DNA of 64,000 nucleotides from Diphasiastrum complanatum. Lineage: Eukaryota; Streptophyta; Lycopodiopsida; Lycopodiales; Lycopodiaceae. Under the pieces are notes generated by a model. It did not search any database and was not told the DNA's origin. It worked only from the letters and a program-made list of their open reading frames with translations. Positions 154 to 48,996 of the stretch are shown here, piece after piece. How positions within the stretch are numbered: position 1 is the first letter of the stretch; the number at the start of each line of letters is the position of its first letter. A program made the position numbers and the translations under genes. The stretch lies in NCBI GenBank assembly GCA_029204225.1, contig CM055101.1, positions 46,239,906 to 46,303,905 on the forward strand, in the 5' to 3' direction.

Positions 154-1166
154 TCAATGCTCTCCGTCTTCTCTAATGATGCTCTTCATTCCCATGGCAT
201 TTCTTAAGCATACAAATCTATCCTTCGATAGAGGCTTGGTCATTATGTCAGCAGTCATCATTTTGGTGGGACAGAACTCCAGCACCATCTTCTGGCTTTG
301 TACCAAATCTTTGACAAAGTGGTGCTGGATGTCAATGCGTTTCCTTCATTTATGCAAACCTCCATTCCTGCACATGAAGATGCTGCCCTGGTTGTCGTTG
401 AAGATCTTCATCCCTTTTTGTTGAGATGCCTATCTCGTGGCATAGACTCTTGATCCAAACATACTCCCTAGCGCCATGACATATCCCCATTAATTCCACT
501 TCCATTGAGGAGACTCGCCACAGATTTTTGCTTGCTGCTTGCCCAGCTTACAACTCCTCCGCCCATCATGAAGACAAACCCACAAGTAGATTTCTTGTCA
601 TTTGTGTCACCTGCCCAGTCAGAGTCGACAAACCCCTCAACGTTTTTAAAAGGAAATCTATATTCCAACCCAAGTTCAATGGTTCCCTTTAAGTACTTCA
701 GAACTCTTTTGGCTGCTTGCCAATGATCGATGCCTGGGTTTTCCAGATACCTGCTGAGTGATCCAATTGTCATGGCTATATCTGGCCTAGTGCATACCAT
801 GGCATACATCAGTGATCCCACTAGGCTTCTATATGGATATCGGTTCATTTTTGCTCTGTCAGACTCAGTCTGTGGTGACATCTCCTTGCTCGATCTTATT
901 CCCTGTTCTTGTGGAGTTCCAATAGGATTGCAATTTTCCATCCCAAATCTTTTGAGCATATTAATGATGTACCTTTCCTGCCTTAGGTGGATAGACTTTC
1001 TGATTCTATCTCTTTCAACTTGAATTCCTAGGCAATAATGCAACTGCCCCATATCCTTGATTTCAAACTCAGTCTTCAATTGTGCCTTATAGGACTCTAG
1101 CCTTGAAATGTTGTCGCCAATCAGAATTATATTGTCCACATAAAGTGCTATGACGGTGATTTCCAA
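154..1166 (-). pseudogene. Copia-1 pol: reverse transcriptase C-terminus and RNase H
   Basis: The minus-strand translation has the RT catalytic segment YVDNIIL (usually YVDDIL), then the copia connector with SLMYAMVCTRPDIA and the RNase H start DSDWAGD with KKSTCG. The frame breaks after SSKQKSVA. RNase H continues in other frames with DNQGSIF, RIDIQHHFVKDLV and TADIMTKPLSKDR, ending in a TGA at 154-156 next to the polypurine tract. The substitution in the YVDD box, the frameshift near 560 and internal stops mark it as inactive. These enzymes copy element RNA into DNA in a cytoplasmic particle. Confidence 0.88.
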
Positions 1167-1265
1167 ATGAGACCTTCTGACGAATATGCTCTGATCTGAG
1201 TTGCATTTTTTGAAATTTCGCTCACGAAGGTATATTTCAATTTGTTCATACCAGACCTTGGATGA

Positions 1266-2177
1266 TTACTTTAATCCATATAGGGCTTTGTTGAGTTTGC
1301 AGACCATGCCCGACCCTTCTTCAAATCCCTCTGGTTGTTTCATATACATGTCCTCACTTAGTGTCTCGTTCAGAAATGTAGTCTTGATGTCAAGCTGATA
1401 GATCTCCATGTCATTGGCCGCTGCCCATGCAAGAATTATCCTAATCGATCCGATTCTAGAAACTGGGGCAAAAGTTTCATCAAAGTTCACGCCTTCTGTC
1501 TGCGAGCATCCTTTGGCTACTATCAGTGCCTTATATCTCTCCACATTGCCCTCTGCATCATATTTTAACTTATAAATCCACCTGTAGCCAATGGCACTCC
1601 TACCTTCTAGTATGTGTACCAGACTCCACACATTGTTCTTCTTGATCGACTCCATTTCCTCTGTCATCGCATGGAGCCACTCGTTCCAATCTCCCCTCTC
1701 TCGAGCTTCCCGATAAGTTCCTGGCTCTTCATTTGGCTCTTGACTCATGAATATCATCTCATTGAATCTTTGGGGAGCTCTCTTTGCCCTGTTTGGTCTC
1801 GCCTCAACAATTGTCTCTGAGTTCTCCCTATTGAACTTGATCTTGAGCCTTGGTTGCCCCACTGTATTAGGTTCTTCGTTCTCTTCCGCATCAAAAAATT
1901 CCTCCCCTGCGGACACCTGACCATCAATGCTCTCATCATGGGTATGATCATCCGAAGATACATTGTCTTGGGATGTATTGGAGCTCGAAATGCTAATGAC
2001 CTTTGTAGGAAACATCACACCCCCCTTGAGTCCACGATCTGCATCAGAATTGGAGGTGGGTTTTACCTCCACTGTGGGATCTTCATCAAACACAACATCC
2101 CTGGCATTGATGAACTTTTTTGTAACGGGATCAAAGAGCTTATATCCCTTAGTCCCTTCCGAATATCCTACAAACAA
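1266..2177 (-). pseudogene. Copia-1 pol: integrase C-terminal region and RT N-terminus
   Basis: About 300 codons are open on the minus strand. The segment starts with the copia integrase tail motif FVGYSEGTKGYKLFDP, passes through an acidic, poorly conserved linker, then has the RT N-terminal half: YRWIYKLKYDAEG, ALIVAKGCSQ, FDETFAPVSR, QLDIKTTFLNE and ALYGLK. The first catalytic Asp of RT lies in QLDIKTTFL. The reading frame shifts before the next block at 1166. The bounds are an open stretch of a longer polyprotein, not a gene start and stop. Confidence 0.9.
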
Positions 2178-2231
2178 GCATTTGTTGGATTTAGGATCAA
2201 GTTTCTTTCGTTTTTCTTTGGGAATGTGTAC

Positions 2232-3300
2232 TTATGCAGTGCAGCCAAACACCCTAAAGTGATCTACTCTTGGCTTATGTCCGTACCACATCTCGTGAGG
2301 GGTTTTTCCTACCAGGGCCTTCGTTGGAGATCTGTTGATTATGTGACATGCAGTTGCCACAGCTTCTGCCCATACATACTTAGGTAGATCATTCTCCTGC
2401 AACATGCAATGCGTCATTTCCATCAGTGTTCTATTTTTTTTTTTCGCCAAGCCATTCTATTCAAGAGTGTATGGTACAGTGAATTCTCTCAAGATACCAT
2501 TCTTTAGACAGAATTCATCGAATTCTTTGTTCTTGAATTCTCCTCCATTGTCACTTCTGAGCTTCTTGACTTTCTTGTTGGTTTCACTCTCAGCTATGCT
2601 CTTGAATGCCTTGAAACTTTCAAGTGCCTGAGATTTTTGCTTCAAGGTCTAAATTCGAGTCCTCCTCGTGTGGTTGTCTGTGTATGTAACGAAGTACCTA
2701 GATCCACCGATAGATGGCACCTCCATTGGTCCACAAATGTCCGTGTGAATCAGCCCAAGTACTTCAGTGGATCTTGTTGGATGTATCTCTGGAAAACGTT
2801 CTCTATGCTGCTTTCCAAAAATGCACACATCACATTTGTCTATCCCCTCCTTGACATCGTAATCGAACCCCCTCAGCATCTCGTCATTTGCCAACGTCTG
2901 AAGACTCTTGCCAGCATCCTAGATGCCCCATCCGCCTATGCCAAAGACTATTGGTTTTGTTGGAGTCAACCGTCAGACACGCCATGGATCTTTGGTCAGC
3001 TCCTCCTTGTAGTTGATACAAACCTCCTATCCTGAATCCAATGTCAATTAGTCTGTCATCCGTCTGAATGCTGCACCCTTCTTTTTTGAACAACACATGA
3101 TATCCAGTATCTGTAAGTCTGGCTACCGACAATAGGTTCTTGGCCAAATTAGGAACATGTAGCATGTCACACATGTTCATACTCCTGTCTTTCCCAAGCC
3201 ATATGAGAACGGAGCCTCTCCCTACCGCATCAATCACGCCTTTGTCCCCCATCATGATCTCCTTACCGATGAGCATCTGATAGGTGATGAAGGCATCACG
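2232..3300 (-). pseudogene. Copia-1 pol: GAG-pre-integrase and integrase core
   Basis: Three overlapping minus-strand frames carry successive integrase parts. First is the pre-integrase zinc region (LWHRRMGHLG, then CDVCIFGKQHRERF). Next comes the core with the first catalytic Asp in HTDICGPM, the second in LRSDNGGEF, and then AEAVATACHIINRSP. Frameshifts occur near 2645, 2450 and 2890. The order and motifs are those of a copia DDE integrase, which inserts element cDNA into host DNA. It is inactive because the frame is broken. Confidence 0.9.
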
Positions 3301-3338
3301 ATTGTCATATAGGACGTAGCTACAGAATCAAGACACCA

Positions 3339-4338
3339 TTATGCATCTGTGTCAATGATCTGTCTCTTGGCTTTCAACTGTACATCGATGACCTCGTTAG
3401 AATCAGATGATGCATCATATGACTGTGTGTCTGATAGTTCCAGGGAGTTCCAATTCTCTTTAGCCATTATAGCGAATGCATCTGTGGTCTCCTGCACTTC
3501 ATCAACTAGGTTGGCTTGATCTGGACTCCTCCTCTGCATGTCAGCTTTCTTTTTATTGCATTCACGAGCAAAGTGCCCTGGCCGATCACAGTAGTAACAC
3601 TTCTTGTCAAATTTTCCCTGGCCATCACTTGAAGTCCTCCTCTTGCTGACTCGATTGCCCACCTTCTGTAATGGGTCTTTGATTCTTGATCCCCATCTTC
3701 TTGAAGCCACTCAAGAGTGCCATTTCATCCTATGCTGGATTGACCTTCCGCCTACTTTCTTCCTGAATGAGCCTCCGAGTGATAAACTCCATGTCCAGTT
3801 TATCCTCAAACCCATCAAGCATCATGACCAATGGATCATAGCTGGATGGGAGACTGGTGATCAGATTGTATATAAGCTATTGTTTGTCAACCACTACACT
3901 GGCCGCTATTAGCTAGCTTCCAATGTCCTTGATCTCCTCCACATGGTCCCTCATCGAATCACCCTCATTCATCTTGGCGTTCGTCAGCTGCCTCTGCAAC
4001 ATCAGAATACTTGAGAAACCTTTAGCTTGAAATCTGCCATGAAGCACATCCCATACCCCCTTTGTTGTCCCCTGATCTCTTACTAATGAGATCGCGGTCT
4101 TGCCTAAGCTCAGGCACAACATCATGTGTGCCTTCGACCCTTTCGTAGTTATCAATTCGGCCTGCTGTGCGTTCTTCACCCGGCCCTCTTGATCCAGTTC
4201 AGGAGTCTCCTCGCCTGATACGACGCCCCATAGGCCCTTGTCTTTCAGCAAGATTTTCATTTTTCAACTCCACGAGCTGTAATTGTCAGCCTCTAACCGA
4301 TCAATCATCTTGCTCTCCGTCGACGCTTCTAGTGCCAT
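3339..4338 (-). pseudogene. Copia-1 gag with CCHC zinc knuckle
   Basis: The minus-strand gag relic probably starts at an ATG near 4338. The N-terminal part has the UBN2-type gag signature (LKDKGLWGVVSGEE, then VWDVLHGRF and LTNAKMNEGDSM). The C-terminal part has a zinc knuckle, CYYCDRPGHFARECNKKK (CX2CX4HX4C), which packages RNA. A frameshifted gap separates the parts between about 3710 and 3913. A typical copia gag is 250-350 residues, which fits the span. Confidence 0.88.
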
Positions 4339-4800: not shown

Positions 4801-5090
4801 CCTTGCTCAATGTTTAGCTAGTATGGTTAACTTCAGACAATAGTTAGTTTAGCATGAGATGTAATAACTTCTCTTCATGCTCATTCTCAAATTTGGGACT
4901 AGAGCTTTAAGACTGAATATCTTGGTGTGCTCAATGCAAAAACTGAAGCGAGAGAGGCAAAACTTTTGAAATCACTGTATGCTTATAGTGAAATATGAGG
5001 TGGGACGATTTTTCAATGCGACATAAACATTACAAAAGTAAGGAATGCTAGATCTATTCATATTGATTTATTGTAGATAGATTCATTTAC

Positions 5091-5965
5091 ATGATTGTAG
5101 CTTTAACAACGGCAATGTTCCATTTGCATGTTGCTCTTTCGATGGAATGCATTCCAATCATTAAGAAAAATGTGAAAGTTGTAGAGAATGTTGCAGCAAT
5201 AGTTAGAGAATTGAGAATGAATAATCATATGAATATAGATTTGTGGGTGGATGGATCAATTTATCCTAATGATCCAGCTACCAATTTGTGTCCATATTTT
5301 AAGTTTGTAACTCATCTTCTCAAATATGTATGTGAAGGAAATAGCGGATTACTTGGATATTGTCAAAGGTTGCGAGATATTGGAATGCATAGCATATCTT
5401 GTCTGAATCAACAATTACAGTTTGCTAATCAACAATTGCAACGTGCAAATCAACAATTGCTTCATTATGTGCAACACACTAGTGCTGAAAACAATGCACT
5501 CAAGAATGCTATGTCAGAGTTGAATGCTACTGTTGCTACTCTCCGAGGATCAAACCAAGAAATGTTAGAATCCATGGAAAAGTTGCGATCCGAGAGTTTA
5601 AAATCTGTTGTTGATCTAAAAGTTATCAATAAGGCAATGATGAAGAGGAAAAGAAAGAGAGTACCGATGAAGAATATTGATGACCTATCTACACATAGCG
5701 GCAATCAGAAAAAAAAGAATCCGAGCATTCAAGTATGTTGTCATCTAAACTGTTTATTTGATTTGTATATGTCATTTAAGTTTGATTTGCACTTGATAAC
5801 ATGGATTACTTATTTATTAAACATAATTTGAGTTTCATATGTTTGTTGCAGATCATGTTTGGTGGCAAAGAACTATTTAACAGATTGTTCATGCATTGGA
5901 TCATCTTTAAGTCATGTTTTACCAAGAAAGTCAGCAAAGGAAATGATAAAAAATGCTCGGTTTGA
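5091..5965 (+). CDS. Unrecognised two-exon coiled-coil protein
   Basis: A plus-strand gene model starts with ATG at 5091. Exon 1 runs 5091-5732 and ends at a GTATGT donor; exon 2 runs 5852-5965 after a TTTGTTGCAG acceptor; the predicted product is about 251 residues. The N-terminal half (residues 1-105) is globular, with Cys at NLCPYFKF and YVCEGN. Residues about 105-180 form a Gln/Asn/Leu-rich heptad coiled coil (NQQLQFANQQLQRANQQLL). A basic cluster, KRKRKR near residue 185, could be a nuclear localisation signal. I recognise no family. The intact frame and good splice sites argue for a gene or a recently decayed TE protein. It sits between retroelement relics and upstream of the methyltransferase/DUF7869 relics, so a mobile-element origin is possible. 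Confidence 0.5.
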
Positions 5966-7615: not shown

Positions 7616-9035
7616 ATAATAGCATGAATCCTAAAATTTTAGAAAATTTTAGGATTTGTTTAAAGTGTTTTCTATATTGTTGTGATAAATTATTTTGTAG
7701 TTTCAAAATTTGGATAGTAGTTTGTCGTAAGTTTTTAGCAGACATTTGCATCTTAGATGAGATCTATAATATTTGTTATTTATTTTAAAAGTCAATTTAT
7801 TATAAGTTTTATACAAAGTTGTTTTTTAGATAAAGATGTTGATTCCATTATTATACTTGTTGGCTTTTTCAAACAATGGCCAAAAGTTTGAATAAACTAA
7901 ATCATAATTAAAAAGGATATGTTACTATGACTTTGTTATATTTTAAGCATTTTAGCCCATGAGTTGTTGAAAAGCCTAGATAAATTATCTTCTTTTAGGA
8001 GAAACGTTGATTCTTTCTTTCGCACTTTTTTTCGAATTTCCTCCATGTTTTTGTATAAAATCTTCAACAGATATTTCTTGTTCACTGAAATTGCTCAGTG
8101 GATTCATTATTGTGTTTTTCGCTTCGTTTAATAGTTGATGATATTCATTTGTTTTTATGTCATTTCTCAAGTAATAAATGATGATGTTGTTTGATAGTTG
8201 TGAGTCTCGATGGACTTAACATGATGACCAAAAAAAAGAGAAATCACTTGAAGACCCATTTTTTTTACATTTATTAAATTTTTTTTAAAAGTATCCAAAT
8301 TTAAAATGCTTCAAATAAATATATTGTAATGTTAAGAAAATGTTGTATTTTGCAAGAAAATAATTTAAGTTACAAAAATTTGGTCAATAGATTTTTATAA
8401 ATAGCTTAAAACTAGCTTATATTAAATAACAATACTATTTAAAATAAAATCATTAGATACACAACCACTAAAATACCTAAAAAATATTTTTTGCTTTACT
8501 AAAACAAAAGTTATAGTTTTTTTTTTTGAATTTTAAAAGTTTTCTAAATTACAATTCTGGTATCGAAAAAAATATTTTTTAAATTATGTTAAAAATTTGA
8601 ATCAATATTTTTTAAAATTTTAAATTTTTGAAAATCTTTACTTACACCCACGTAAGTTTATTAAATATTTAAACATTAAATAAATGCAAATGAAATTACT
8701 TTACAATAATCATGATTAAATTATTTGTGATAATATTTAAATCACCCTACAAAAAATCTAAATTTTTCTTTTTTCATTTCTTATAATTTCTAACAATATT
8801 TTTTTACAAAAAATATTATAAAAACACATCTAAAATTAAAATATTGTAAACTTGACAAATCGTTACAATTTCATTTTTGGTAATAATTATCAATGTAAAA
8901 ATTTTTAAAATATTTCAGATTTTAAATTTTAAATCGTTAAAAAACAAATTTGAAAATATTAAATCAATAAAAAAGAATTCAAAACACAATACATCAAAAA
9001 TATAAACACAATTATTTTTTAAAACAAAAGAGACT
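7616..9035. other. AT-rich stretch without a convincing gene
   Basis: The stretch is very AT-rich with many A and T homopolymers. A 61-codon minus-strand open frame at 7985-8170 (product ends SAKERINVSPKRR) has a protein-like composition and lies downstream of the methyltransferase relic on the same strand, so it may be one of its lost 3' exons. Nothing else is supported. Confidence 0.4.
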
Positions 9036-10265
9036 TTATAATTCCCAAAAATTATCGATGTCATTTACATCTTTTTCTTTTGCTTTTTCTTGAGTAGCCA
9101 CTGTACTATCAAGTGGCACATCTTCTACAATTTCCTCGACTACAGTTACTACATTGTAATCTTGAACCAAGACATCAGCAAATTCTCCTGTGTCGCCTAC
9201 TTTTTCGCTAGCAAGAGACTGAGATTCCTCGGACAAGGGAATTATTGTATCCTCGTTGTCCAAACTCTTTCCCACCTCAGATAATTCATCTGGCAAAATT
9301 GAAAGAGATTTCATTCTCATTTTTACAAAATCAACTAAATTAGTATCTAGATCTACTACAGCAACATGTCTACCTTTCTGAATAGCACATGCGCTCGTAG
9401 TGTCGCTATCGCTAAATAAATCTAAAACCCAATCAGCTGGGTGAGAAAAAATATCAATTAAATGATTAATTAATTGTTGTGGCTTTTGGTAGGGACAAGC
9501 CACGGAACCTGTCATTGGATTTTTTAATTTCTTTGTCACAGCTGAATACTTGAACAAGTTTCCAAAACTTGTCAATCCGGAAGTGTTATAATACAGCATC
9601 GAACGTTTGCCATCCAAAGAATAATAATTGATGGTTATGTATTCTATTTCATTGCAAAGTCGAGCTCCTCCCGAGTTCTTGACATTGGGCTTGTACTTGA
9701 CATGAAACATTACAAGTAAAATAAATCTAAAATTTTAATTTTAAAATAAAAAATTTAAAATAAAATTATGAATTAAAATACGGATTGATAATTTAGGATT
9801 AAGAACTTACCACACAGCATTCTCTAATCTCGCATTACAGAAAGTTAGTAGAGCTTTCTGTACTGATGTTGACTGCCAAGAATAATGAAAAATAACAACT
9901 CTCCAAATTGGAGAAGTTGTGACTTCAAGAAAGCCCTGCATAAAACTATGGATTTCAGTGAATTTGAAAGGAGTATCATCATTTAATGATTCCTTTATTT
10001 GACATCCATATGGTATATCGGCGATGCAGAGTGTATAGGCCTTTTTCTTAAAAATCTTAAAATTTCTCTACAATCGCCCTCCTCAATAGAGTAAAAGCAT
10101 GGTTGACCATCGACACTTTTGGGAAGGTAGGTCTCTAATGGATCCTCCTCCGCAATGGTCTCACCACGTGCCAATCTCTCCCTGACCCTTTTTTCTGCTT
10201 TTGCCTTCAGAATATGTCTCTTGAATTGCTCTGGAAGGACTTTAATTTTTTTTGTCTTCGGGAGA
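9036..10265 (-). pseudogene. Beta-class DNA amino-methyltransferase relic (N4-cytosine/N6-adenine type)
   Basis: A minus-strand spliced relic. Exon a is about 9811-10265: acceptor CTTTTCAG at its right end, donor GTAAGT at 9805-9810. Exon b is about 9036-9735. Exon a encodes EEGDCREIL, then a 1-bp frameshift near 10042-10056, then motif IV as IADIPYGC (consensus DPPYG). Exon b carries KPQQLINHLIDIF and motif I as VLDLFSDSDTTSACAIQKGRH (split here: VLDLFSDSDTT, then SACAIQKGRH), followed by VAVVDLD. Motif IV before motif I is the beta-class order of bacterial amino-methyltransferases, which transfer methyl groups from S-adenosylmethionine to DNA. DIPY for DPPY and DSD for GSG in the cofactor loop, plus the frameshift, suggest inactivity. 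An acidic tail of ~90 residues follows. Introns rule out simple bacterial contamination. Confidence 0.7.
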
Positions 10266-10339
10266 CTGAAAAGGAAAAAGCTATGCTTAGCATAGGAGGC
10301 AAAAAAATATAAAATAGAATAGGAGAACTGTTTCTCCAG

Positions 10340-12611
10340 ATGCTTTAAATGCAACTGCTTGGCTAAAGCATTTCATAGATGTGCACGAAAAAAAATTGCC
10401 TAATTCTTTATATTTTCACTTGCCGGATAATTTTGCAAAATTAGAAATATTTTTGATGTACAAAGAGTTTGCAAAAACAAAAAATGTTCCCTATTTGAGT
10501 TACTCATATTATCTTAGAATTTGGAAAAGAGATTTTGGATTGGTAAAGATTTCCAAAAAATCAGGAATGATGGTATGCTCCACTTGCGAGTTGTTAAAGT
10601 CTACAAAACAACTTGCAAAGACCAATGACGAAAAAGGTAAATATTAATCAAATTTGTCTTTCATTTTAATACTTTCTGTTTTGAAAAAAATTATGTTGCG
10701 GTCTTTTTGAACACCATTATGTTGCAGTCTTTTTGAACATCGTTATGGTATGATCTTTATTTTATTAAATAAGTGAATCATTGTATTTTCAGTGGATGCT
10801 GCAAAAGCTCTTCAATTGCACAGAGATCAACAAACAATTGAAAGACAAAAGTTGGCCAAGCATCGAAAGAAATGTTTGGAATGTCCACAAAAATATCTGG
10901 GACTTGTTATTGATGGCATGGATCAGAAGAAAACAATGTTGCCTCATTTTGTCAGAGTGCCCAAAAATTTGAACAAGGCAGATTTTATCCAAGTTCATCT
11001 CATTGGAGCACTTGTGTTTAATGGCACTTTGGAGTCCAAGGTCTTTTTTAATTATCCCAATGTTCAAAATGATCCAAATTTGACGATCACCATTGTACAT
11101 AAGATAATTTGCGAATTTGGTGAAAATCTTATAGAAATACTTTATATGCAGCTTGACAACACTGCTAGAAAAAATAAAAATCAAACTGTTTCGGCATACT
11201 TGTCTATGCTAGTGGAGAAATTTTTTTTCAAAAAAGTCAAAATAGGATTTTTGTTGGTAGGACATAGCCACGACCAAATTGATCAAATGTTTAGTTGCTT
11301 TTCTAAGAGGTTGAGACGCAAGAAAGCATTTTCATTACCAGTGCTTCAAAGCATTGTTGAGGAATCGTATGTGCCAAAGCCAAACGTGTCATTAATCAGA
11401 CACACATATGATTTTCGTGATTATGTTAAGGCGTCCAACGAAACAGAGCGAATATTAATGATATTAGCTTTCAGCACCAGTTTAAAATCAAATGTAACGA
11501 ATCAAGCATTATACTGTTATGGGGCAAACTATTTTCAAATTCAGTTTCGTGGCTACCTCTTGAAGGAGTTCGATTTTTGCTTAACATTCGATCGACTCAA
11601 ATCAAGCTTGTTGTGTTGTCTCCCTTGAAATCCTTGCTAGAAGAACAAAAGGCGCAAAGAGAACATCGTGAGAATGATCCATTTGTCTCATTAATTTTTT
11701 TGGAATCAAGTATTCAATCAGCTTATTATTTTTTTGATGAGTTTGATTAGCATTGGTGGATGGACTTTTTTGAAGAACAAAAAATCAGTTTGCTCAATCT
11801 CGAACATACATCAACAACTCATTAATTTCATTGGCTTCATAAATTAGGAACATCAACTACGATTGTCGAACCTTCAGATCTTCCTCAAGATAATGATTTC
11901 CTGCAGCTTGTGCAAGGTGAGGAACGCGAAATTTATGTGGGCTCAAGGAAGAATAGGCAAAGTGTAAAAGCTGCAAAAATGAAATGGCGCGGTGATTTGA
12001 ATGAAATCCAAATTGGAATCCATGTTGCACTTCTAGCTTCAGAAAACAATGAAGGACATCCATTTTGGATTGCCAAAGTACTTGGTTTTATTCAAAATAG
12101 CAATCAAACAAAAGTACTACACGTCCATTGGTTGCGCACCACTTCAACGAATGCTTTTTTGGGAAGGGACGAACTCGAAATGTTGCAAGTAGATCCAAAG
12201 GGCAAGAGAAAGAGATTGCCAAAAAATCAACCAAGAGTCGACGATTTGAATTTACAGGATGTAGATGTTTTGGCATTTAATTTTGGATTAACAATGACCA
12301 ATTATCTATGAAAGTCAACAATATCTATATTGAAAGAACGACTTGGATTACTTGAAAAACCATCATCCTCCACTCGTCATCAACAGAGAAAAGCTGATTT
12401 ACAAGGTTTTTTGTCAACATTAGACGCGAATTTTGAGGAAGACATGCCAGTTGACTCTGATGAAGAAGACGGGTCTTCCACTTCATCAACTGAAAACGAG
12501 AGTGTTGAGAATATGTCAAGTTCTGAATTGAAAGGCATCAGTGAAAATTCCTTAGAAGCATTACATATGGGTGATGCAATTTTCTACAAAACATGTAGTT
12601 TTGCATGTTAG
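10340..12611 (+). pseudogene. DUF7869-like protein relic (possible transposon-derived)
   Basis: A plus-strand spliced relic. One exon is 10340-10636 (acceptor TTTCTCCAG, donor GTAAAT); the next starts at 10793 after TATTTTCAG. The first exon has WLKHFIDVHEKKLPNSL and a Cys pair in MVCSTCELLK. The second has VIDGMDQKKTMLPHFVR, IQVHLIGALVFNG, QLDNTARKNKNQT and VGHSHDQIDQMF. Conserved D..D(N)..H..D residues in this order are typical of the DUF7869 family as I know it. A frameshift near 11450 and a TAG near 11748 interrupt it. It then continues with HPFWIAKVLGF and HVHWLRTTST, one in-frame TGA at 12309-12311, and an acidic Ser-rich tail to 12611. The D/D/D-like spacing may reflect an RNase H-fold nuclease; that part is inference. 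Confidence 0.6.
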
Positions 12612-16902: not shown

Positions 16903-19900
16903 CTATCGCCGGTATCTCGTTGGCCCCCTTGGCCCATGGACATCCCTCTGAAATCTCCTTATCGGAGACCTGCTTCTTTCTCGAAGGTCTGCTCCCCAAC
17001 GAGAGCGTGGGGGTGACAAAGGGCGTCTCTCACCTCTTGGATCGTGGTCCAAGCTTTTATCTTTATGGTGATTTCCCCTTTCCCTTTCCCTAATACCGCT
17101 GCCATAAAAATCACTACTAAATGAAAACTTGTCAAACCTCTCTCGATGTATGGAAGGAGCTTTTTCAAACCTCTGTCTGTCTCTAAAACCATCCTGACCA
17201 TCATGGTACATACCTCTATCTCTATCTCGAAACTCTCTTTCTGGTGGTAAAGTCAAAAATCTATCAGGAACACGACTAGAAAGGCCATGATCAAACTCTT
17301 GTCCCCATGCATTAGGAGGAACATCAAGAAGACCATGATTGTCACCGATCCTTCGGTCAAAATGTGGGTCTCCTACAAAATCAGGTTGTACAGGCCCTTG
17401 AAAATTCCCCAAAGGACCACCAAGTCCGAGGCCAAAAGGAGCCATATCTCTTGGTTTCCGACAATTGTTGCAATGGGTTCTCCTGGAAAAGTTCAGATTT
17501 CCACATCTACAAAAAGTAAGAGAATAACAAACGTCAGAGTTGTTCATTTTGAAAAGACTACAGGCAAAATAATAAATAAGCTCCGCTGCATTTGCACAAA
17601 TATCAAAAACAAAGTAAAAATCGAAATACTTCAAGAATACCTGCAAAGTTCTGAGTAAAAGAATATTTCAGTTCCATGATTTGAGGTTCAAACTGAAATG
17701 CGTATGAAGCTTGACCAGGAGAGACTACATGTATCTAGAAAACATACTGTCAACACAATGAAACAGTTTCAAATCATAGCCCTAATTTAAGACTTACGTT
17801 GGCTCTGAACATATCCAGTCACCTTCCCTGGGTGAAACATTTGGATTATTGCGTCCATGACTGTCCTCTCCAGGTACAAAACCATCTCGACTTCCATAAC
17901 CACGTCCACCAAAGCTTCGTCCAGAATGTGGCATGTCACGTTCAAACCCAGATGAAGACTGCAAACGAGTTGGAAAACGATCTGAATATCTACCTCGACC
18001 TCTACCTCCTCTGTTGACCGCTCTACGTCCACCCTGATGTCGAAGAGTGTCTTCCTCAAATTTGGACATGAATAAATATGGTCTCCTACGACGAGGACTT
18101 AAGCTTAAATGTCCAAACTGAGACTCATTCCTACCTCCACTTTGGCCATAATCTGTTGAATCAGAAAGATAATTCAGTTAGGCAGAACAACATGATACAA
18201 AGAAAAAATTCTCATCCTCATATTACCATGAATGGTGAATTTCAATTCAAAGTTTCAATCAATTCATCAAGCAGAATTATCTAAGTGTTAAGGCATAAAA
18301 GTGCCACTTGCACCTCTTCTCAAACAGAAATCATGATGTTGGTTCATGTCCTGTGAGTATCCGGACCTTCAGAAACAAGAGGTTGGCCACAAACACTATA
18401 TACTGATTTAAAATGGTCATTAAACTGCCCACACACGAAGCAATGCCAAAAAGCACAGTCAAAAGTTCACATTCCCAAAGGTAGAATAGATTTATCATGC
18501 GGCATCTACCAGTACCAATATGTAATTGAACATAAGAACAGCAAATAGCAATTCTTGTGAAATCGCTACTTGAAAGCCCTATCACCAGGTTTTGATTGCA
18601 ATGCAAAACAAACTCCTGTGCTTTCCTCTTCCAGAGCAGAACTGATGTACTCCAGTGTAAGAAAGAATGCCAATTATTCCATTATCCAAGGAAGAATGAC
18701 ATCTTTAAAGAATTCCAATTATTCCATTATCTAAGGAAGAATGGCATCTTTAAAGAATTCCAATTATTCCATTATCTAAGGAAGAATGACGTCTTTAATT
18801 CAGAATTTCCAAAAGCTCCAACGAAGCTGTTGTCAATACTGCACCCAACACTAATGTAAAAGAAGTGCTAGTAATTTAAGCTAATGAATATTCAGGAAAT
18901 TTATCCAGAAATACAACCAAGGGCTCTGATTTTCTGAGGATATTAAATCTGACTTTCCAGTTGTGAGCTACACTGAAGATCTGCAACCTAATGTGACTGT
19001 TGATGCTAACGGTGGTCCTATATGCCAACTACTTTCACAGTTCTTTTTTGTATTTCCATGACCAAAGCCATTCCAAACCACAGATTTACAGCTCCTGAGC
19101 ATCAGAGTGTGATTACCCTCCTATATTAACATGGATGTGACAAAGATCAGGAGCCATGGTTTCAATTTTCAATGAAGTCCAACCATTCTCCCTCCTTTCC
19201 TTGATAGCTTCAAATCAAACACAGAACCTAGAGTTTCTGATTTTTCTGCATAGTTCTTTTTTACATAAATCCCACAATTCTGCCTCCTCTCCTCGATAGC
19301 TTCAAGTCAAACTCAAAACATAGAGTTTCAAATTTTTCTGTTCTCTGGTACTCAGGTGTGTGATCACGAGATTCAATTTTCTCTTCACATTCCTTGAATT
19401 CAAACTAGACAAATGAGATCTAAAGACAGTAGACCTATTAGAAAAGATAGGGTGACGTAGTCTAGTCCCCCCCGTATTACACATACTCAGAATAACAAAG
19501 AAAATCTGTACACCATCATGCCAAGTACCGTCAGTAAAGCAATAGAAGCAAACTTTCCAAAACTGACTCATAAAGTACCAACTTTAAAATGAAATTCCAC
19601 CAAGCCGATCATTTGATACATTGGTAAAGTCTTATGTAGTTTCCAAAATATGCTGATTGGCTAAGGTAACTTAAGCCCTCCAAGGGTCCACGATAGAAAG
19701 CGTTGTCCTCGTGTTCAAATTCTTTAGCTATAAGATATAACATCAAATCCTGGAGCAGCTGCAAGGACTGTGTTAAGCTGCTGTTAAAACCCAACATGGT
19801 GAGCATTGACAAGGTATTCCTGTCCAATTACTACTCTTATGTACTCCAGAGGGCCAGCATGTATCCGCATCAGTTAAAGTTGCCATTCATTGTCGCATTT

Positions 19901-37479: not shown

Positions 37480-38940
37480 TAGTATGGTAATTTAGATCAT
37501 GATCATAAAGAGAAATAGTTGTTAGCAGATTTAAAGCAAAAAATTAGTAATGTTTTTCCTAGTGAACTTCCGCATGGTCTACCTCCGTCTAAGTCAGTAG
37601 ATCATAAGATAGAATTAATTTCGAGTAGTCAACCTATCTTCCAACAACCATATCGTTTAGTCTGAAGGAAGAGAAGGAAGTGACTCGGCAAATTGAGGAG
37701 TATCTTCGAATGGGTCGCATTCGACCTAGTAATTCGCCATGGGGAGTGCCAGTCCTTGTTAAGAATAAGAAAGATGGTACTTTTCGGATGTGCGTAGACT
37801 ACAAGGGGTTAAACAAAGTTACCATTAAGAATAAGTATCCTCTGCCTAGGATGGATGATCTACTTGATCGTTTGGATGGAGCTAGATATTTTACTAAAAT
37901 TGTCTTGCGAACTGGTTATCATCAGACTTGAATCCATCCAGAAGATGTGTCTAAGACGGGTTTTAGGACTAGATTTGGTCATTATGAGTTTTTCGTGTTA
38001 CCATTTGGGTTAACTAACTCTCCGGCCACTTTCTAGCAGATGATGAACGATTTATTTCGTCCGTATCTGGGAAAGTTTGTTGTAGTATTTTTAGATGATA
38101 TACTCATCTATAGTAAAACACTCAAAGAGCATAACAAGCATCTTAGGACTGTCTTGAGGATTTTGAGACAGGAGAAGCTTTATGCTAAAGAGTCGAAGTG
38201 TGAGTTCTTTAAGAAATAATTGTTGTATCTTGGTCATGTCATATCCTAGAAGGGAATTATGATTGATCGGGAAAAGATTAAAATGGTTATAGATTGGCCA
38301 ATTCCTAAAACTGTAAGAGAACTTAAATCTTTTTTGGAGTTTATGATTTTCTTCCGTAGATTCATTTTGGAGTATTCGTTGGTTGTTGCACCTCTTAACA
38401 GTGGGTTGAAGAGGATAATTACTCGAAAGAGTAGGTCAAGTCCACCTCTCATGTGGAATGAGACATTGGATGCAAGTTCTAATAAACTTAAGGAACTAAT
38501 AGTCTCAGCACCAATTTTGATCATAGCGGATCTGGCTAAACCTTTTTTGGCTAAAGTGGATGCTAGTGATTATGCGGTTGGTGCAGTTTTGTTACAAGAG
38601 GGGAGGCCAGTTGCTTTTAAGAGTAAGAAGTTGCTTGATATACACAAACCAGATATAGAACTCAAGAAAAAGAACTTTTTGCAGTTGTGCATGCGTTGAA
38701 GACGTGGAGACACTATTTTTATGGTAGTCAATTTATAGTGTGCTCTGATTACCAACCATTATAGTATTTCTGTAATCAGAAAGTCCTTAGGGGTCAAAAG
38801 GCTCGATGGGCTGAGCTGATGCAAGAATTCAACTTTGATTTGAGATATATTAAAGGATCATCAAATCATGTGGCGGATGCCTTAAATCGAATTGCTGAGG
38901 TGAATGAATTGTCATTCACTGAGATCACTACTGATTTCTA
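37480..38940 (+). pseudogene. Gypsy copy A reverse transcriptase and RNase H
   Basis: RT motifs in order: [49 protein letters not shown], the catalytic [13 protein letters not shown] (near 38,085) and DWPIPKTVRELKSFL. Then comes RNase H with KVDASDYAVGAVLLQEGRP. Several in-frame stops (for example near 37,930, 38,034 and 38,217) and a frameshift in RNase H disable it. Confidence 0.88.
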
Positions 38941-39029
38941 TCTTTCATTTCGAGGTCTTTATGAACAAGATTCTCATTTTGGACCTATATGACAAAGGGT
39001 TCTAAATGGCTCTCAATCGAGAACTGATT

Positions 39030-40425
39030 TACAAGGTGATCAGTTGATTGTGAAAGATAAGAAGGTAGTGGACGATTTTTCCATTCGGGATGGGATTTTA
39101 TTCTGAAAGAGAAAAGTGTGTGTACCATGAATGGATGCATTAAAAAGAAAATTAATTTGAATGTCATGACGCATCTTGTGCTGGGCATCCAAGTATACAT
39201 CGTACTCTAGATTTGGTACGAAGGGACTTTTTTTGGCCAAAGTTGAAACCTTTCGTAGAATCTTATGTGTTGAAATGTGATGAGTGTCAACAGAATAAAG
39301 CAGAGCACTTAAAGGCTAGTGGACTGTTGCATCCATTGGATATTCCTTCTAAATGGTGGGATAGTATTCCAATGGACTTTGTAGTTGGTTTACTGAGGAC
39401 AAATAAACAGAGTGATGCAATTTGGGTATAGTTGATCGGTTAACAAAATTGGTTACGTTTATTCTGATAAAGACTGCAATTAAAGCGTCTGATTTAGCTC
39501 AAGTGTTTGTTTGGCTATATGAGTTGCCATCTACATTGTTAGTGATCACGGGTGTAAGTTTACAGGCCGATTTGGACGATAATGTTTGAAAAGCTTGAGA
39601 CGTCTTTGAGCATGGGCTCGACTGATCATCCGGAATTCGATGGTCAGACCGAGAGGACTAATCAGACAATGGAACAAATGCTTCGTGCATATGTTTTACT
39701 TAGGCAATTTTAGTAAGAAAAGTATCTTCCATTAATTGAGTCTGCTTATAATAGTAGTAAGCATTCGGCTATCGGATGTAGCCCGTTTATGCTTATGTAT
39801 AGATTTCAGCCTAGATCTCCGATAATGGTTGAAACTAAGTCGATTAAAGTTCAGAAAGTAGCGAATTTCTTGTGTGAAATGCAAGAAATGTTACAGTTAG
39901 CACATGAAAATGTTACAAGTGCCCAGGTTCGAGTAAGACATTTTGCTAATCTGAAAAGATGGCCTTGGGAGTTTCAAGTTGGAGATTGGGTGTATCTTAA
40001 AATTTCGAAGGATTCGAAGGTAATGCGCACTGGAAAGCATTACAAACTGTCTGCTAGGTATAGTGGACCATATAAAATCTTGAAAAAGATTGGATCTTTA
40101 GCTTACTAGTTAGAGTTATCAGAGGGAATCAAAGCTCATCCTGTGTTTTATGTGAGTTGTCTGAAGATGAGTTTACATGAGGGAGATCATGTTGATCCTG
40201 GTACTAATCTAGATTTATTTGAGGACTTTTCTGAGAGGATTCCTTTAGAACCTGAAAAGATTCTTGATACTAGATCCAAGCGATTGCAAAATCGGGATGC
40301 TATTGAGCATCTGGTTCATTGAAAAGGATATTCCGATGATAAGGATTCATGGGAACTAGAAGGTAACCTAAGAAATAGTTTCCCGGGCTTTGAGTTATGA
40401 GGACAGAACTAAAATAAGGGGGGAA
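39030..40425 (+). pseudogene. Gypsy copy A integrase with chromodomain-like tail
   Basis: Zinc-binding HHCC end (CDECQQNKAE), core start WWDSIPMDFVVGL (first Asp), third catalytic Glu in FDGQTERTNQTMEQM, then the SH3-like GDWVYLKISKDSKV and YSGPYKILKKIGS. The extreme C-terminus (PEKILDTRSKR, then SW-D/E) resembles a chromodomain, which places the family among chromoviruses; such domains guide insertion to particular chromatin. The purine tract AAAATAAGGGGGGAAGTA ends at 40,428. Stops and frameshifts near 39,430, 39,590 and 40,108 are present. Confidence 0.85.
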
Positions 40426-40428
40426 GTA

Positions 40429-40783
40429 TGTTACCACCCTAATCAGAGTTTGTACCATTGGGGGGCTGACTTAGACGTAGAGGCCAAGCCTAATTTGAAT
40501 AATAGCTAAGTAGGACCTTAGGCTATGCCTACATGCGGTATAGGCATGTGTGTTGCATCCTAGTATGGGATAGGATGTACATGCACTGTGTCTATGCATG
40601 GGTCTTTGCTATTATGAGTTAGGGGTACCTACATGCAGTGGACATGCATGGGAGTTAGGCATGAGTTGATAGCACGCTTAATTGTGGACTCAGTGCATGG
40701 ACAGACAGGGTGGGTGCTACTCTGTATATACCATCTCCTGTGTCCATAGGATTCATTGAGAGTCTGCGGCCGTTATGCTGTCA
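40429..40783 (+). repeat. Gypsy LTR L2 (truncated)
   Basis: Starts TGTTACCACCCTAATCAG after the polypurine tract of copy A and follows LTR L3 closely up to CGGCCGTTATG.TGTCA, then stops. The missing ~150 bp are replaced by another element's 3' end. Confidence 0.88.
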
Positions 40784-41026
40784 TGGCGTCAGTGGCAACC
40801 AAATGGGATGATTGCCTTCCTATCCTAGCATTCGATCCAAATAAGCCGATGGTCTTAGAGCAAACCAAAGATCAGTTGTCGATTGCTCGATTGTATATGA
40901 TGGGAGGCTCTTGGGAATCCCACTTCACCTCATGGACAACTTCCAAGTGGATTGCCGGAGCCCACCGTTGTTTCCTACCGCATAATTTGGATTTCAAGAT
41001 TGCACGCCTTGACTTTATGGAGAAGG
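40784..41026 (+). pseudogene. C-terminal ORF piece of another retroelement
   Basis: Open frame reading MASVATKWDDCLPILAF then NKPMVLEQTKDQLSIARLYM, ending FMEKV and a TGA that overlaps the start of the next LTR (TGTGAGAAAT). A purine tract GGAGAAGG precedes that LTR. The protein is not recognised; position alone suggests the 3' end of an element carrying the 41,027 LTR. Confidence 0.4.
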
Positions 41027-41846
41027 TGTGAGAAATTGGCAAAAATCTAGCTTGGTATTTTTTATGATAGAAGTTTGTAAGTGAATCTCACATGTGTGGA
41101 GGATGTTCCCACGTGTGGAGAATCGTAAAGTAAATCAAAATGTTCGATATAGAGGTCTCATAGAATTTCATAGTCAAGCATTTAGGTGTAGGATGTTGAT
41201 AGGGTCAAATTTGGCATAGATGGCAAATTATCTATTTCCACTTGTAATGCCAATATTGAGCCAAAATAGAGCCAAACTTGTGCCAATTAGAGTGTAGACA
41301 AGTATCATGCTTTTGTTTGATGAAGCTTAAGAGGTCCAATAGGATTTAGAGGTGGAACCTTGTGAGGTCCAATAGAAAATTGAGGTGTGCTTGAATATAG
41401 TCCAATAGAATTTAGAGGTGCATGGATCAATGGTCCAATAGGATTAAGAGGTGGCAAAGTGTGATCCAATCATAGTTAAGCATAGTGGTAGCTCATGAAT
41501 CTATTAGTATCATTGTACTCCTCCTTTTGGATCTAATTGATTTTGAGATTGAGTGGATTTTGAGTGTCATTGAATTTCTAGCTTTCTCTCTCTACCCGAG
41601 AGCTCTTGATGGTTTTTCTCTCTCTACTCGAGGAGAGCAGCTTGTTTTTACTTAGAATACTTTTGGAACACTTCCCACATGTGTGAGTGAGAGTTGGAAG
41701 TGATTGAATGCATGTAGTAGTGTGTTTTTGCCATAGAATCAAAGATAGATCTTGAATCTCAATCTAGTCTTGATCTTGGTGCATCTACACACCTTAGGAG
41801 ATCACAAGTACATGTAGTGGACAATCCACACGTGTGAAATTCAACA
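41027..41846 (+). repeat. LTR of the TGTGAGAAAT family, copy 2
   Basis: Parallels 30,283-31,009 from TGTGAGAAAT to ...GTGTGAAATTCAACA. It is about 90 bp longer, mainly near the start. No primer-binding site follows, so it is a 3' or solo LTR nested in the gypsy complex. Confidence 0.85.
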
Positions 41847-42649
41847 TAAGGTGCAGTATCATTTAATTAAGATTCGGCACAAAGCCAATAAAAGTCCCCA
41901 ATAACTGCATATTGCAGGTGTCATAAGTGAGAGGGATTTGGCACCCTGTGTGTGTAAGTCCAACTCGATAACCACATAGTTATTTAATTGATTAGTTAAA
42001 AGTCAATAAAAGGACTTTAGGCCTTTTTGTGGGACTTTTAATGTCGCAGGGCCTAAATGTCAAGTTAGTGAATAAAGTTGGGTTTCCCTCCAATTTTGAT
42101 GGTTCCCACACTTTTTTAAATTTGAATAAAAAGAGAGGCAAGACTGGACCAATAGGGTTCAGAGGCCAAGGTCCTCCTCTCTACTATAAAAAGGGACCAA
42201 CTCGAGTTGCTCATGATGTTCATTTCCTCATTTCAATAAAGCAGATTGGTTCTCTTTAGAAATGGATTGATGAATGTCCTTGCTCTTCCTCTCTTCTCCT
42301 CCATTTCTCATGCTTTCTTTGGATTTTGCTAATTGTTGGATTTGATCATTATTGGGATTGCTATTTCTTATGCTTTTTGTGAGAGAGAAAGGGAGAGAGA
42401 GAAGAGTAAGTTTCTATCATTGTTGTGGTTTTAGGGTTAATGAAAGTAGGGTTAATGGATGTAGTGTTAATGCTTAGTGTTAATGGATGTAGTGTTAGGT
42501 CCTCCATTCATGTTGAAATATGAACTATACTATCGCTCTCATGGGAACGAACCTACGCATGACAACTAACTCCGTCTCTTTGATGCTAGATTGACTAGAT
42601 CTTGGATTCAGGTTAGGCAAGGAAAGAAACCCACTACACTTATCAGAAA
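41847..42649 (+). other. Possible LTR/promoter remnant
   Basis: Contains a strong TATA box in CTACTATAAAAAGGGACC at about 42,180, preceded by TATTTAATTGATTAG-rich sequence, as in a plant LTR U3-R region, and a repeated GTTAATGGATGTAGTGTTA near 42,450-42,500. No paired copy was seen in the window and no coding part is recognised. Confidence 0.35.
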
Positions 42650-43025
42650 TCAAATCAAAAATAACTTAGTTAGGCCATTAACTAGTCTATTTACCTCTCG
42701 TATATCTGGAGCCCCGGATTGCATGATGTACCACTCTAAGAAGTCCTGTATATTGTGGATGGAGAACCATCCACAACTGTGTCCATCATCTTGCTGAGCT
42801 GACTTCAATCACAAAACATATAATGGTTAGTTGTGCACTCTGAAAAAAAAACTAATCAAATTACTTATCAGATACTTGATGAGAAATACTTACTTCTACA
42901 TCAACAATCTCCAAGTGGCTATTTATAGTGGCCCCATCCGGCCTTGGCAAAAATTGCAACATTTTGTTGTACATCACATTCATTTCGGCATGGGTAGAGC
43001 TCAAGGAATTCATCTTTAAACAGAT
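42650..43025 (-). pseudogene. Ulp1-like (C48) cysteine protease fragment, two exons
   Basis: A minus-strand relic. Exon 42894 to about 43025 encodes STHAEMNVMYNKML and FLPRPDGATINSHLEIVDVE and ends at a GTAAGT donor (42888-42893). Exon 42650-42802 follows an ATTGAAG acceptor and encodes QQDDGHSCGWFSIHNIQDFL then EWYIMQSGAP to a TGA. The Gln-x-DG-x-SCG-x-F pattern is the oxyanion-hole Gln and catalytic Cys of Ulp1/SENP-type deSUMOylating proteases. The His and Asp parts are missing. Such domains are carried by several plant DNA transposons (Mutator- and CACTA-like), so a captured or TE-encoded protease fragment is the likely source. It is embedded in the gypsy complex. Confidence 0.55.
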
Positions 43026-43062
43026 GGGATTAATGATCTCATCTGAATCTTTCCTAAGGGAG

Positions 43063-45365
43063 ATTACATTAGGATATGAGTGGTCCTTGAGTAAATTTGA
43101 TAGTTTGCAAATCAATTTAAAAAAGAATACAGTTTATGGATTCTAGTGGTAAAGTGGTATCCATTTTTGGTGATGATACTGAAACTCATTTTCCGATGGT
43201 TACATCGACGGAATTAATAAAGGAAGCTCACAATTTTGATTGTTGCTATCTTGTTTTAAAATCTTGCTTAAGTGGAATTGTTTCTGAGTCTTCGAATGAG
43301 AATGATAGTACTAAATTAATTATTGATGGTAATTTCATTGTGAATGATGAAAGTCAATATGCTAATTTAGATCATGATCATAAAGAGAAACAATTGTTAG
43401 TAGATTTAAAGCAAGAATTTAGTGATGTTTTTCCTAGTGAACTTCCAGATGGTCTACCTCCATCTAGATTAGTAGATCATAAGATAGAATTAATTCCGGG
43501 TAGTCAACCTATCTTCCGACAACCGTATCGGTTTGGTTTGAAGGAAGAGGAGGAAGTGACTTAGCAAATTGAGGAGTATCTCCGAATGGGTCACATTTGA
43601 CCTAGTAAGTCGCATGGGGAGCGCCGGTCCTTCTTAAAGATAAGAAAGACGATACTTTCCAGATGTGCATAGACTGCAAGGAGTTGAATAAAGTTACCAT
43701 TAAGAATAAGTATCCTCTATCTAGGATGGACGATCTGGTTGATCGTTTGGATGGAGCTAGATATTTTACTAAAATTGGCTTGCGAACTGGTTATCATCAG
43801 ATTCAAATTCATCCAGAAGGTGTGTCTAAGATGGGTTTTAGGACTAGATTTGGTCAGTATGAATTTTTGGTGTTACCGTTTGGATTAACTAACGCTCCGG
43901 CCACTTTCCAGCAGATGATGAACGATTTATTTTGTCCGGATCTGGGAAAGTTTGTTGTAGTGTTTTTAGATGATATACTCATCTATAGTAAAACACTCAA
44001 AGAGCATAAGAAGCATCTTAGGACTATCTTGAGGATTTTGAGACAAGAGAAGCTTTATGCTAAAGAGTCGAAGTGTGAGTTCTTTAAGAAATAGCTATTG
44101 TATCTTGGTCATGTCATATCCTAGAAGGGAATTATGATTGATCGAAAAAAGATTAAAATGGTTATGGATTGGCCAATTCCTAAAAATGTACGAGAACTTA
44201 AATCTTTTTTGGGGTTTATGGTTTTCTTTTGTAGATTCATTTTGGATTATTCGATGATTGCTGCACCTCTTAACAGTGAGTTGAAGGGGGTAATTACTCG
44301 AAAGGGTAGGTCGAGTCCACTTCTATGTGTGGAATGAGACAATTGATACAAGTTCTAATAAACTTAAGGAACTAATAGTCTTCGCACCAATTTTGATCAT
44401 AGCGGATCTGGGTAAATTTTTTTTGGTTAAAGTGGATGCTAGTGATTATGCGGTTGGTGCAGTTCTGTTACAAGAGGGGAGGCCAGTTGCTTTTAAGAGT
44501 AAGAAGTTGTCTAATACACAAACCAGATATACAACTTAGGAGAAAGTACTTTTTGCAGTTGTGCATGCGTTGAAGATTTGGTGACACTATTTATATGATA
44601 GTCAATTTATAGTGTGCTCTAATTACCAACCATTAAAGTATTTCTGTAATCAGAAAGTCGTTAGGGGCCGAAAGGCTCGATGGGCTGAGCTGATGCAAGA
44701 ATTCAACTTTGATTTGAGATATATTAAAGGATCGTCAAATCAAGTGGTGGATGCCTTAAGTCGAATTGCTGAGGTGAATGAATTGTCGTTCACTGAATCA
44801 CTACTGATTTCTATCTTTCATTTGGAGGTCTTTATGAATAAGATTCTTATTTTGGACCTATATGGCAAAGGGTTCTAAATGGCTCTCAATCGAGAACCGA
44901 TTTACAAGGTGATCAGTTGATTGTGAAAGATAAAAAGGTAGTGGACGATTTTTCCATTCGGAATGGGATTTTGTTCCGAAGGGAAAAAGTGTGTGCACCA
45001 TGAATGGATGCATTAAAAAAGAAAATTTTATTTGAATGTCATGACGCACCTTGTGCTGGGCATCTAGGTATACATCGTACTCTAGATTTGGTACAAAGAG
45101 ACTTTTTTTTGCCAAAGTTGAAACCTTTCGTATAACCTTATGTATTGAAATGTGAACAGTGCCAGCAGAATAAAGCAGAGCGCTTAAAGGTTGGTGGACT
45201 GTTGCTTCCATTGGATATTCCTTCTAAATGGTGGGATAGTATTTCAATGGACTTTGTAGTTGGTTTACCGAGGACGAATAACAAAATGATATAATTTGGG
45301 CCATAGTTGATCGGTTAACAAAATTGGCTACGTTTATTCTAATAAAGACTATAGTTAACTTCTGA
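43063..45365 (+). pseudogene. Gypsy copy B: protease end to integrase core
   Basis: Begins inside the protease region (LGYEWSLSKFDSLQI), then a long open stretch 43,136-43,564, RT 43,663-44,094 (open, with [20 protein letters not shown] and [13 protein letters not shown]), RNase H 44,327-44,539, and integrase up to MDFVVGLPRTN at about 45,285. It ends within the integrase core at an inversion junction near 45,365. It lacks gag and LTR. Fewer stops than copy A, but TAG codons at ~43,561 and 44,092 and frameshifts near 44,335 make it inactive. Confidence 0.88.
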
Positions 45366-48300: not shown

Positions 48301-48366
48301 ATGCAGACCTGAATAACTGTTCCACCTGTTAATCTATGATTCCACTGCTGCCAGCTGCTTAAACTT
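45366..48366 (-). pseudogene. Gypsy copy C: gag to integrase start, inverted
   Basis: The minus-strand copy runs from gag (FVELKMGSRDLDTYVQEIMD, 48,366-47,820) through the zinc knuckle, protease VLFDSGNTHNFINSRLVHKL and DLILGYEWFFSK (47,718-47,233, open), RT 47,303-46,348, and RNase H 45,972-45,649 (FAVVHALKTWRHYLYGSQF). It ends at the HHCC zinc region near 45,366. It is joined head to head with copy B at its integrase end and with an LTR-side fragment at 48,366. It is the best-preserved source for the family's protease. Confidence 0.88.
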
Positions 48367-48404
48367 TGAGTTCTGATGACAGAACTAAAAAAAGGTGGGA
48401 AGTA

Positions 48405-48920
48405 TGTTACGGCCCTATTAGGAGTTTGAACCACTGGGGGGCTGTCTTAGACGTAGGGGCCAGACCTAATTTGGATAATAGCTAAGTAGGATCTTAGGCT
48501 ATGCTTGCATGCGGTATAGGCATGTGTGTTGTATCCTAGTATGGGATAGGATGTACATGCACTGTGTCTATGCATGGGTCATTGCTATTATGAGTTAGGG
48601 GTACTTACATGCAGTGGACATGCATGAGAGTTAGTCATGAGTTGATAGCACACTTACATGTGGATTCAGTGCATGGTCAAGCATGAGGAGAGCTACTCTC
48701 TATACTATACTCTCTCCTGTGTCCATTAGAATCATTGAGAGTCTACGGCCGTTATGATGTCAAATTCGTAAGCGCTTACTATCATTGTGATTGCCATACT
48801 CCCTAGTGCTCGGGGGCTAGATCGGACGGTCTAGGTTTGGTTGGGTCAGTTTCGTCCACTGCACTACCTTATTGTGTTCTTGGAGCTCAATCATGATTGG
48901 AGGTCTTGGGGGACATTTTA
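48405..48920 (+). repeat. Gypsy LTR L3
   Basis: Starts TGTTACGGCCCTATTAGG after a purine tract (AAAAAAAGGTGGGAAGTA) and ends GGGGGACATTTTA, directly followed by TTGGTATAAGAGC, a one-base variant of the primer-binding site. It therefore has a 3'-end context on its left and a 5'-end context on its right. Confidence 0.88.
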
Positions 48921-48996
48921 TTGGTATAAGAGCATCCAATCGGAGCTTGTGAGAAGCTCGGTGTGGACCAAAGCATAGTGGAATTAAGCACACTCG

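Follow-up and report, generated by a model that had tools for sequence, protein, structure and literature searches.

How a methyltransferase gene of bacterial type comes to lie, decayed and interrupted by introns, in the genome of a clubmoss is the question raised by a stretch of 64,000 nucleotides of Diphasiastrum complanatum DNA (contig CM055101.1, positions 46,239,906 to 46,303,905; hereafter the window). A preliminary description had taken the locus for either an isolated capture or a methyltransferase (MTase) borne by a transposon. The second possibility holds and the first does not, the unit being a transposon that also carries a divergently oriented DUF7869 gene. The window very probably contains a dead, internally deleted copy of a repeated Sola-like transposon of seedless plants, equipped with a divergent presumed transposase gene, an amino-MTase gene and phased palindromes. 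The copy comprises the following features (window positions, strand in brackets where assigned):

8218-12557: transposon remnant; MTase-side terminus at 8218 with AACATGATGACC inside, truncated on the DUF7869 side at 12557
9039-10267 (minus): N6/N4 DNA amino-MTase gene remnant (PF01555), two exon pieces with one frame change; acceptor at 10267 placed by eye
9396-9428 (minus): motif I, VLDLFSDSDTT, damaged
9700-9810 (minus): MTase intron; donor GTAAGT at 9810-9805, inner border approximate
10002-10025 (minus): motif IV, IADIPYGC, in the native ADIPYG form, from reading frames, alignment of relatives and a motif scan
10278-10298: palindrome AAGCTATGCTTAGCATAGGAG, the one left, in what remains of the intron preceding the motif-IV exon; exact core at 10283
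10325-10326: internal deletion junction; about 4.45 kb lost by comparison with L095 and 3.7 kb with L094, two copies from the same genome
10326-12557 (plus): DUF7869 (presumed transposase) gene remnant, from PF25273, reading frames and tblastn

The methyltransferase relic and its partner gene

The segments first noticed at this locus (IADIPYGC, the GTAAGT intron, VLDLFSDSDTT and, immediately preceding the latter, KPQQLINHL) were all located on the minus strand, and the beta-class order claimed for them, motif IV (10025-10002) followed by motif I (9428-9396), was confirmed. The Pfam profile N6_N4_Mtase, which has a curated cut-off of 26.7 bits, matches the open frame 9734-9036 with 45.4 bits (E 1.2e-11). 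Joining this frame to the motif-IV piece, as in the profile search of the spliced translation that the preliminary description had called for, gives 49.4 bits (E 7.1e-13) over profile positions 3-217 of 221, far above the cut-off. At the level of sequence, the remnant is confirmed as the relic of a beta-class-type amino-MTase with a catalytic domain of bacterial type. The nearest solved structures by sequence are those of CcrM, MboIIA, RsrI and DpnA (PDB 6pbd, 1g60, 1eg2, 5hek). The plant MTase shares with these enzymes the profile match, the order IV then I and, in intact copies, an FSGSG/FSGTG-type motif I, but differs from them in having ADIPYG where they have the PP form, and by its introns, a large upstream part and its location on a transposon.

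The single frameshift that had been reported lies near 10067-10058, where a piece in frame 2 passes into frame 1. The intron site (after W, before VKTN) matches that of the Azolla-type copies described below; by eye its acceptor side is non-canonical, and the splice acceptor has likely been lost. Motif I of the window reads FSDSD and departs from FxGxG. Its proposed decay from GSG to DSD agrees with the intact FSGSG of the protein relative P0001 (DLFSGSGTT) and of own-genome copies that include L094, L095, L097 and L098, and the second of the two changes (FSGSD) is common to L086, L087, L090, L096 and L099.

The canonical motif IV of amino-MTases is (D/N/S)PP(Y/F/W). The window has DIPY, and D[IV]PY occurs in all scanned relatives that show the motif. 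ADIPYG is present in 7/7 relatives spanning motif IV in the alignment (P0013, P0015, P0017-P0019, P0039, P0049), and [IV]ADIPYG in 8/8 Azolla-type contigs scanned. Among 39 own-genome loci scanned, some of them short and some overlapping, motif IV was seen in nine, as IADIPYGF (five), ITDIPYGF (three) and IADVPYGF (one). Since all seven aligned relatives carry ADIPYG, DIPY is the family's own form and not, as had been supposed, a decayed DPPY. The intact intron-bearing homologue with DPPY and GxG that the preliminary description envisaged exists in part: introns and an intact GxG were found, DPPY in none of the relatives. Because D[IV]PY is a family-wide departure from the PP form of motif IV, catalytic activity of the MTase is uncertain. 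The seven aligned proteins constitute a second ADIPYG MTase group without visible introns; their motif I is of the type C[CS]G[TS]G, and those sequences that include the end show a QPP-type tail.

With the open frame as query, 5.8 billion proteins yielded six relatives; an alignment-based search gave 78. Identity to the window frame is 59% for P0001 and 32% for P0002 from the fern Ceratopteris richardii. Two single-protein scans of viral contigs yielded no viral relative; an alignment scan gave 37 loci with 21-49% identity in the best segment, 29 of which match only from residue 215 onward, and 3 of 50,697 phage records match at 25-37%. A viral origin was considered and dropped, and no donor is argued.

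The DUF7869 gene directly adjoins the MTase in divergent orientation. PF25273 (DUF7869) matches the plus-strand frame 10777-11628 (E 4.8e-45); the upstream exon, read from the frames, extends to 10639 and is followed by an intron and a second exon from 10793. The gene is damaged by a frame change between 11439 and 11454 and by stops at 11748, 11823 and 12309. Its relatives comprise 51 matches, the named ones from Adiantum nelumboides, Riccia sorocarpa and the clam Mercenaria. The predicted structure has an overall pLDDT (predicted local distance difference test) of 70, and the VIA rows for it are all integrases or transposases; Foldseek alone gave no significant match at 0.001. D342, D345, D423 and D465 are conserved acidic residues. 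On this structural model, the core is predicted to adopt an integrase/Mos1-like RNase H fold of the DDE/D type.

A repeated two-gene transposon in two plant lineages

Similarity between the window and six other copies from its own genome (L094-L099) stops at 8216-8218, beyond which the flanks are unrelated, and AACATGATGACC is found at the MTase-side end of 7/7 copies, the window included. On the opposite side, L094 and L095 match the window as far as 12557 and continue to resemble each other beyond this point. Within the element, the neighbouring window positions 10325/10326 correspond to 2716 and 7169 in L095; the deletion took the N-terminal exons, the array of palindromes and the beginning of DUF7869. 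With its middle lost, its frameshifts and stops and its broken motif I, the copy is dead. Terminal inverted repeats (TIRs) exceeding those of shuffled sequence are lacking in the window (30 versus a shuffled maximum of 35), because the DUF7869 side is cut off.

The Diphasiastrum genome (G000; 1.745 Gb, 5176 contigs) contains at least 151 matches to P0001 (150 of 2966 first-look candidates scored) and at least 69 to the DUF7869 protein of the Azolla-type contig L043 (52 of 5797 candidates scored). One copy may match twice, and copies may also be counted double because certain places on a large contig have a seemingly identical counterpart on a small one. The element is a repeated family in this genome. 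Among eight stretches of 9.9 kb chosen by their MTase (L092-L099), two (L094, L095) have the divergent layout complete, three (L096, L098, L099) have kept N-terminal exons, and three (L092, L093, L097) have MTase exons only; DUF7869 is absent within 9.9 kb in six of the eight. The complete layout is also present in L100, selected by its palindromes, and coordinates indicate two more divergent pairs, C17:194914(-)/200329(+) and C17:902663(+)/897338(-). The terminus of the own-genome family is resolved on the MTase side only: L094 has no TIRs above shuffles, and an A+T-rich inverted match in L095 (41 versus 28) was rejected as a TIR, as it lies inside the element borders.

A second lineage emerged when bacterial and archaeal genomes were scanned, with matches to six contigs of a metagenome-assembled genome (MAG) titled 'uncultured Trichormus sp.'. 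Eight DUF7869 places were found in this assembly, and five further contigs were added, giving eleven (L038-L043, L057-L061), with introns, Ty3-type flanks and DNA transposons. Given the introns and Ty3-type flanks, these contigs presumably come from the nucleus of the host fern, Azolla, and were binned with its cyanobiont. Both genes are present in five of the eleven and lie head to head in all five (L038, L041, L043, L060, L061); L039, L040 and L042 reach the MTase side only, and L057-L059 contain DUF7869 only. The complete elements seen (L038, L043) measure 7.7-7.8 kb and consist of two head-to-head genes between short imperfect TIRs. Their DUF7869 frames encode 888 (L038) and 873 (L043) residues, and the frames upstream of the MTase exons 566 and 584 residues, respectively. 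Damage occurs here as well: the DUF7869 match of L041 and the motif-IV exon of L038 are each split over two frames. In L041 the genes abut at 3511-3514 without the usual space and palindromes, so that its middle has apparently been lost, as in the window copy.

Inverted ends of the type AACACGTTTGCGTGAAGAA were found in 3/3 contigs with both ends, L038 (3147-10951), L041 (506-6549) and L043 (698-8421). The flanks of L043 share TGTT, a 4-bp duplication, and when joined they restore a single, uninterrupted Ty3-type frame of 360 residues, which identifies L043 as a clean insertion with an empty site. A matching target-site duplication (TSD) was not found in L038 or L041. Beside the element in L038 (10960-15494) lies a satellite-like field with many inverted repeats.

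Selection was assessed by the pairwise ratio of non-synonymous to synonymous substitution rates (dN/dS) between Azolla-type copies, using an own script; pairs without a finite dS were saturated at synonymous sites. Values are 0.06-0.10 for the motif-IV exon (3/15 pairs with finite dS), 0.02-0.04 for the motif-I exon (4/10), 0.12-0.14 for the last MTase exon (3/6), 0.07-0.08 for the N-terminal frame (2/6) and 0.12 for DUF7869 (1/1). Both the MTase and the DUF7869 frames are under purifying selection, and constraint on the MTase is about equal to that on the presumed transposase, which argues that the MTase has a role in the element's life.

Phased palindromes between the genes

Inverted-repeat output for L043, L094 and L095 yielded a shared palindrome core, ATGCnnnGCAT. 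The Azolla-type contigs contain 35 exact cores, distributed over 9/11 contigs (none in L040 and L041), compared with a mean of 0-0.2 per contig in dinucleotide shuffles, and all of them lie in the space between the genes or, where a contig has one gene, upstream of it. Among the own-genome copies, exact cores number 7 in L094, 11 in L095, 3 in L096, 10 in L098 and 3 in L099 (dinucleotide-shuffle mean 0.05-0.3); L097 has one, outside the MTase region, and L092 and L093 none. Palindromes occupy the same intron place as the one left in the window, before the motif-IV exon, in L094, L095, L096, L098 and L099. A second exact core in the window, at 5385, is outside the element. The flanks of the palindromes are lineage-specific (AGTCGATGCnnnGCATCGACT versus AACCTATGCTnAGCATAGGTT), and L061 contains symmetric variants (GGTCGATACCAGGTATCGACC), which indicates that dyad symmetry has been kept.

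Spacing was analysed for palindromes with at least 8 of 9 arm pairs, leaving out distances of 636 in L038, 290 in L039 and 2099 in L094. The best period between 8 and 14 bp is 10.40 bp (R 0.875, n=45; jittered null 0/5000), with R 0.83 when each of the 16 unique values is used once. The occurrence of ATGCnnnGCAT palindromes between the genes in both plant lineages, phased in multiples of 10.4 bp, is new; searches of open-licence literature brought up no account of such phased palindromes, none of the searches having named palindromes.

Across G000, CCTATGCTNAGCATAGGTT has 898 forward and 959 reverse matches, and its reversed control 0 and 0; the sites are fewer than the matches, because a perfect palindrome matches on both strands. 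On C1, a site lies within 4 kb of two of the four MTase places in the listed range, and many listed clusters are without an MTase place among the matches listed.

Possible functions and rival explanations

The closest known system is Sola1-1_Ec32 of the brown alga Ectocarpus (PMC12477816), compared here by description only. According to the available part of that account, it is a DNA transposon with an opposite-strand second gene for an N4C/N6A MTase, as in the plant element; the two differ in that the algal element measures 21.5 kb and is reported to encode a ParB-like domain, whereas the plant element measures 7.7-7.8 kb and has phased palindromes. The same excerpts cite ParB-like/MTase genes for green and red algae, and for the gene of this kind in Sola1-1_Ec32 the authors propose methylation of element DNA in cis. 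An excerpt on the red alga Asparagopsis reports 66 genes with an N6_N4_Mtase domain (PMC12115072), which may be of the same sort. The Sola superfamily, again likened by description only, is characterized in the part of the source at hand by a DDD transposase, a 4-bp TSD, variable TIRs and a size of mostly 2-9 kb, and is known in Physcomitrella (PMC10741241); SOLA elements are stated to be numerous in Azolla, more so than in Salvinia (excerpt of PMC6786969). The plant element resembles this superfamily; a 4-bp TSD was seen in one of three plant copies, L043. Among the papers listed by searches of open-licence literature, none concerned an MTase-bearing transposon of land plants and none contained the word DUF7869; the portion of PMC12695648 available concerns MT-A70 enzymes.

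If the MTase were instead a bacterial enzyme captured as a plant host gene and now a pseudogene, with the DUF7869 transposon adjacent by chance, its bacterial-type catalytic domain would be accounted for, and eukaryotic captures of this kind exist in bdelloids (N4CMT, PMC8885841) and Marchantia (MpDN4MT1a/b, PMC8566409). Those amino-MTases are likewise of bacterial type but are described, in the parts of the two reports consulted, as host enzymes, which sets them apart. Against host capture stand the head-to-head pairing in all five two-gene Azolla-type contigs and in own-genome copies, the shared inverted ends that enclose both genes in L038, L041 and L043, and the at least 151 matches in G000. 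Host capture is very improbable and was rejected in view of the repeated pairing and the shared ends. That the MTase is a Pack-type passenger of one transposon lineage, without a role in the element's life, would agree with the many own-genome copies that have lost one gene or the other and with the dead window copy; the presence of the gene in two divergent lineages with the layout kept, the dN/dS of 0.02-0.14 in MTase exons against 0.12 in DUF7869, and similar proteins on the brown algal transposon make a mere passenger improbable.

For the transposon with its own MTase, the DUF7869 protein would cut and join the element ends, and the upstream frame and the MTase exons may form a single protein. 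Phased dyads between two divergent promoters would be what a cooperative dimeric DNA-binding protein requires, the candidates being the MTase protein and the transposase, either of which might bind the palindromes as dimers. The bound protein could then methylate element DNA; as the MTase gene is under selection, doing so in cis is its most likely task. Such methylation could tie the timing of transposition to replication, regulate the divergent promoters or impede silencing by the host. As a tentative extension, which appears somewhat less than probable, the element may mark itself: an N-terminal part, maybe very diverged ParB-like, would load MTase dimers on a parS- or operator-like array, and N4-methylcytosine (4mC) or N6-methyladenine (6mA) placed in cis would couple transposition and promoter control to replication and set the element apart from host DNA silenced by 5-methylcytosine (5mC). 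Alternatively, the MTase might act on host DNA or RNA, for example as a host-wide mark, with the palindromes serving as divergent-promoter operators bound by the DUF7869 protein or a host factor. The array does sit where divergent promoters would be, and nothing ties the MTase physically to the palindromes. The co-occurrence of array and MTase in both lineages points the other way, although weakly, because DUF7869 co-occurs as well; a target outside the element is rather unlikely.

The N-terminal part of the MTase protein, about 560 residues upstream of the N6/N4 domain, looked suggestive of ParB by eye (YFVIGGSHSAEARRQL). No ParB family was among its matches in Pfam, PHROGs, NCBIfam or PDB, profile and shuffle tests were negative, and hhalign against three ParB-MTase proteins was negative, with a score equal to that of an unrelated control pair. 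Its AlphaFold model has a pLDDT of 40. The ParB-like reading is retained as speculation only.

The existence and function of DNA amino-methylation (4mC, 6mA) in land plants are debated. A repeated plant transposon family with its own amino-MTase gene, under purifying selection between diverged copies, bears on this debate, and the conserved phased palindromes provide a concrete, testable target. If active, the enzyme would supply seedless plants with marks other than 5mC and give a eukaryotic transposon a means of telling self from non-self; surveys of 4mC/6mA in such plants would have to account for these elements.

Elsewhere in the window, Copia-type and Ty3-type polyprotein pieces were recognized by eye at 468-3710 (minus) and 38250-57135, and long CT/AG dinucleotide tracts occupy 51437-51835 and 52787-53393. 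A 254-residue open frame with the look of a coiled coil (5067-5831, plus) has weak Pfam matches below cut-off. Open frames at 16903-18177 (minus) have a start resembling a zinc finger (CRCGNLNFSRRTHCNNCRKP) and a tail rich in arginine, serine and glycine; by eye, they perhaps belong to a host RNA-binding gene.
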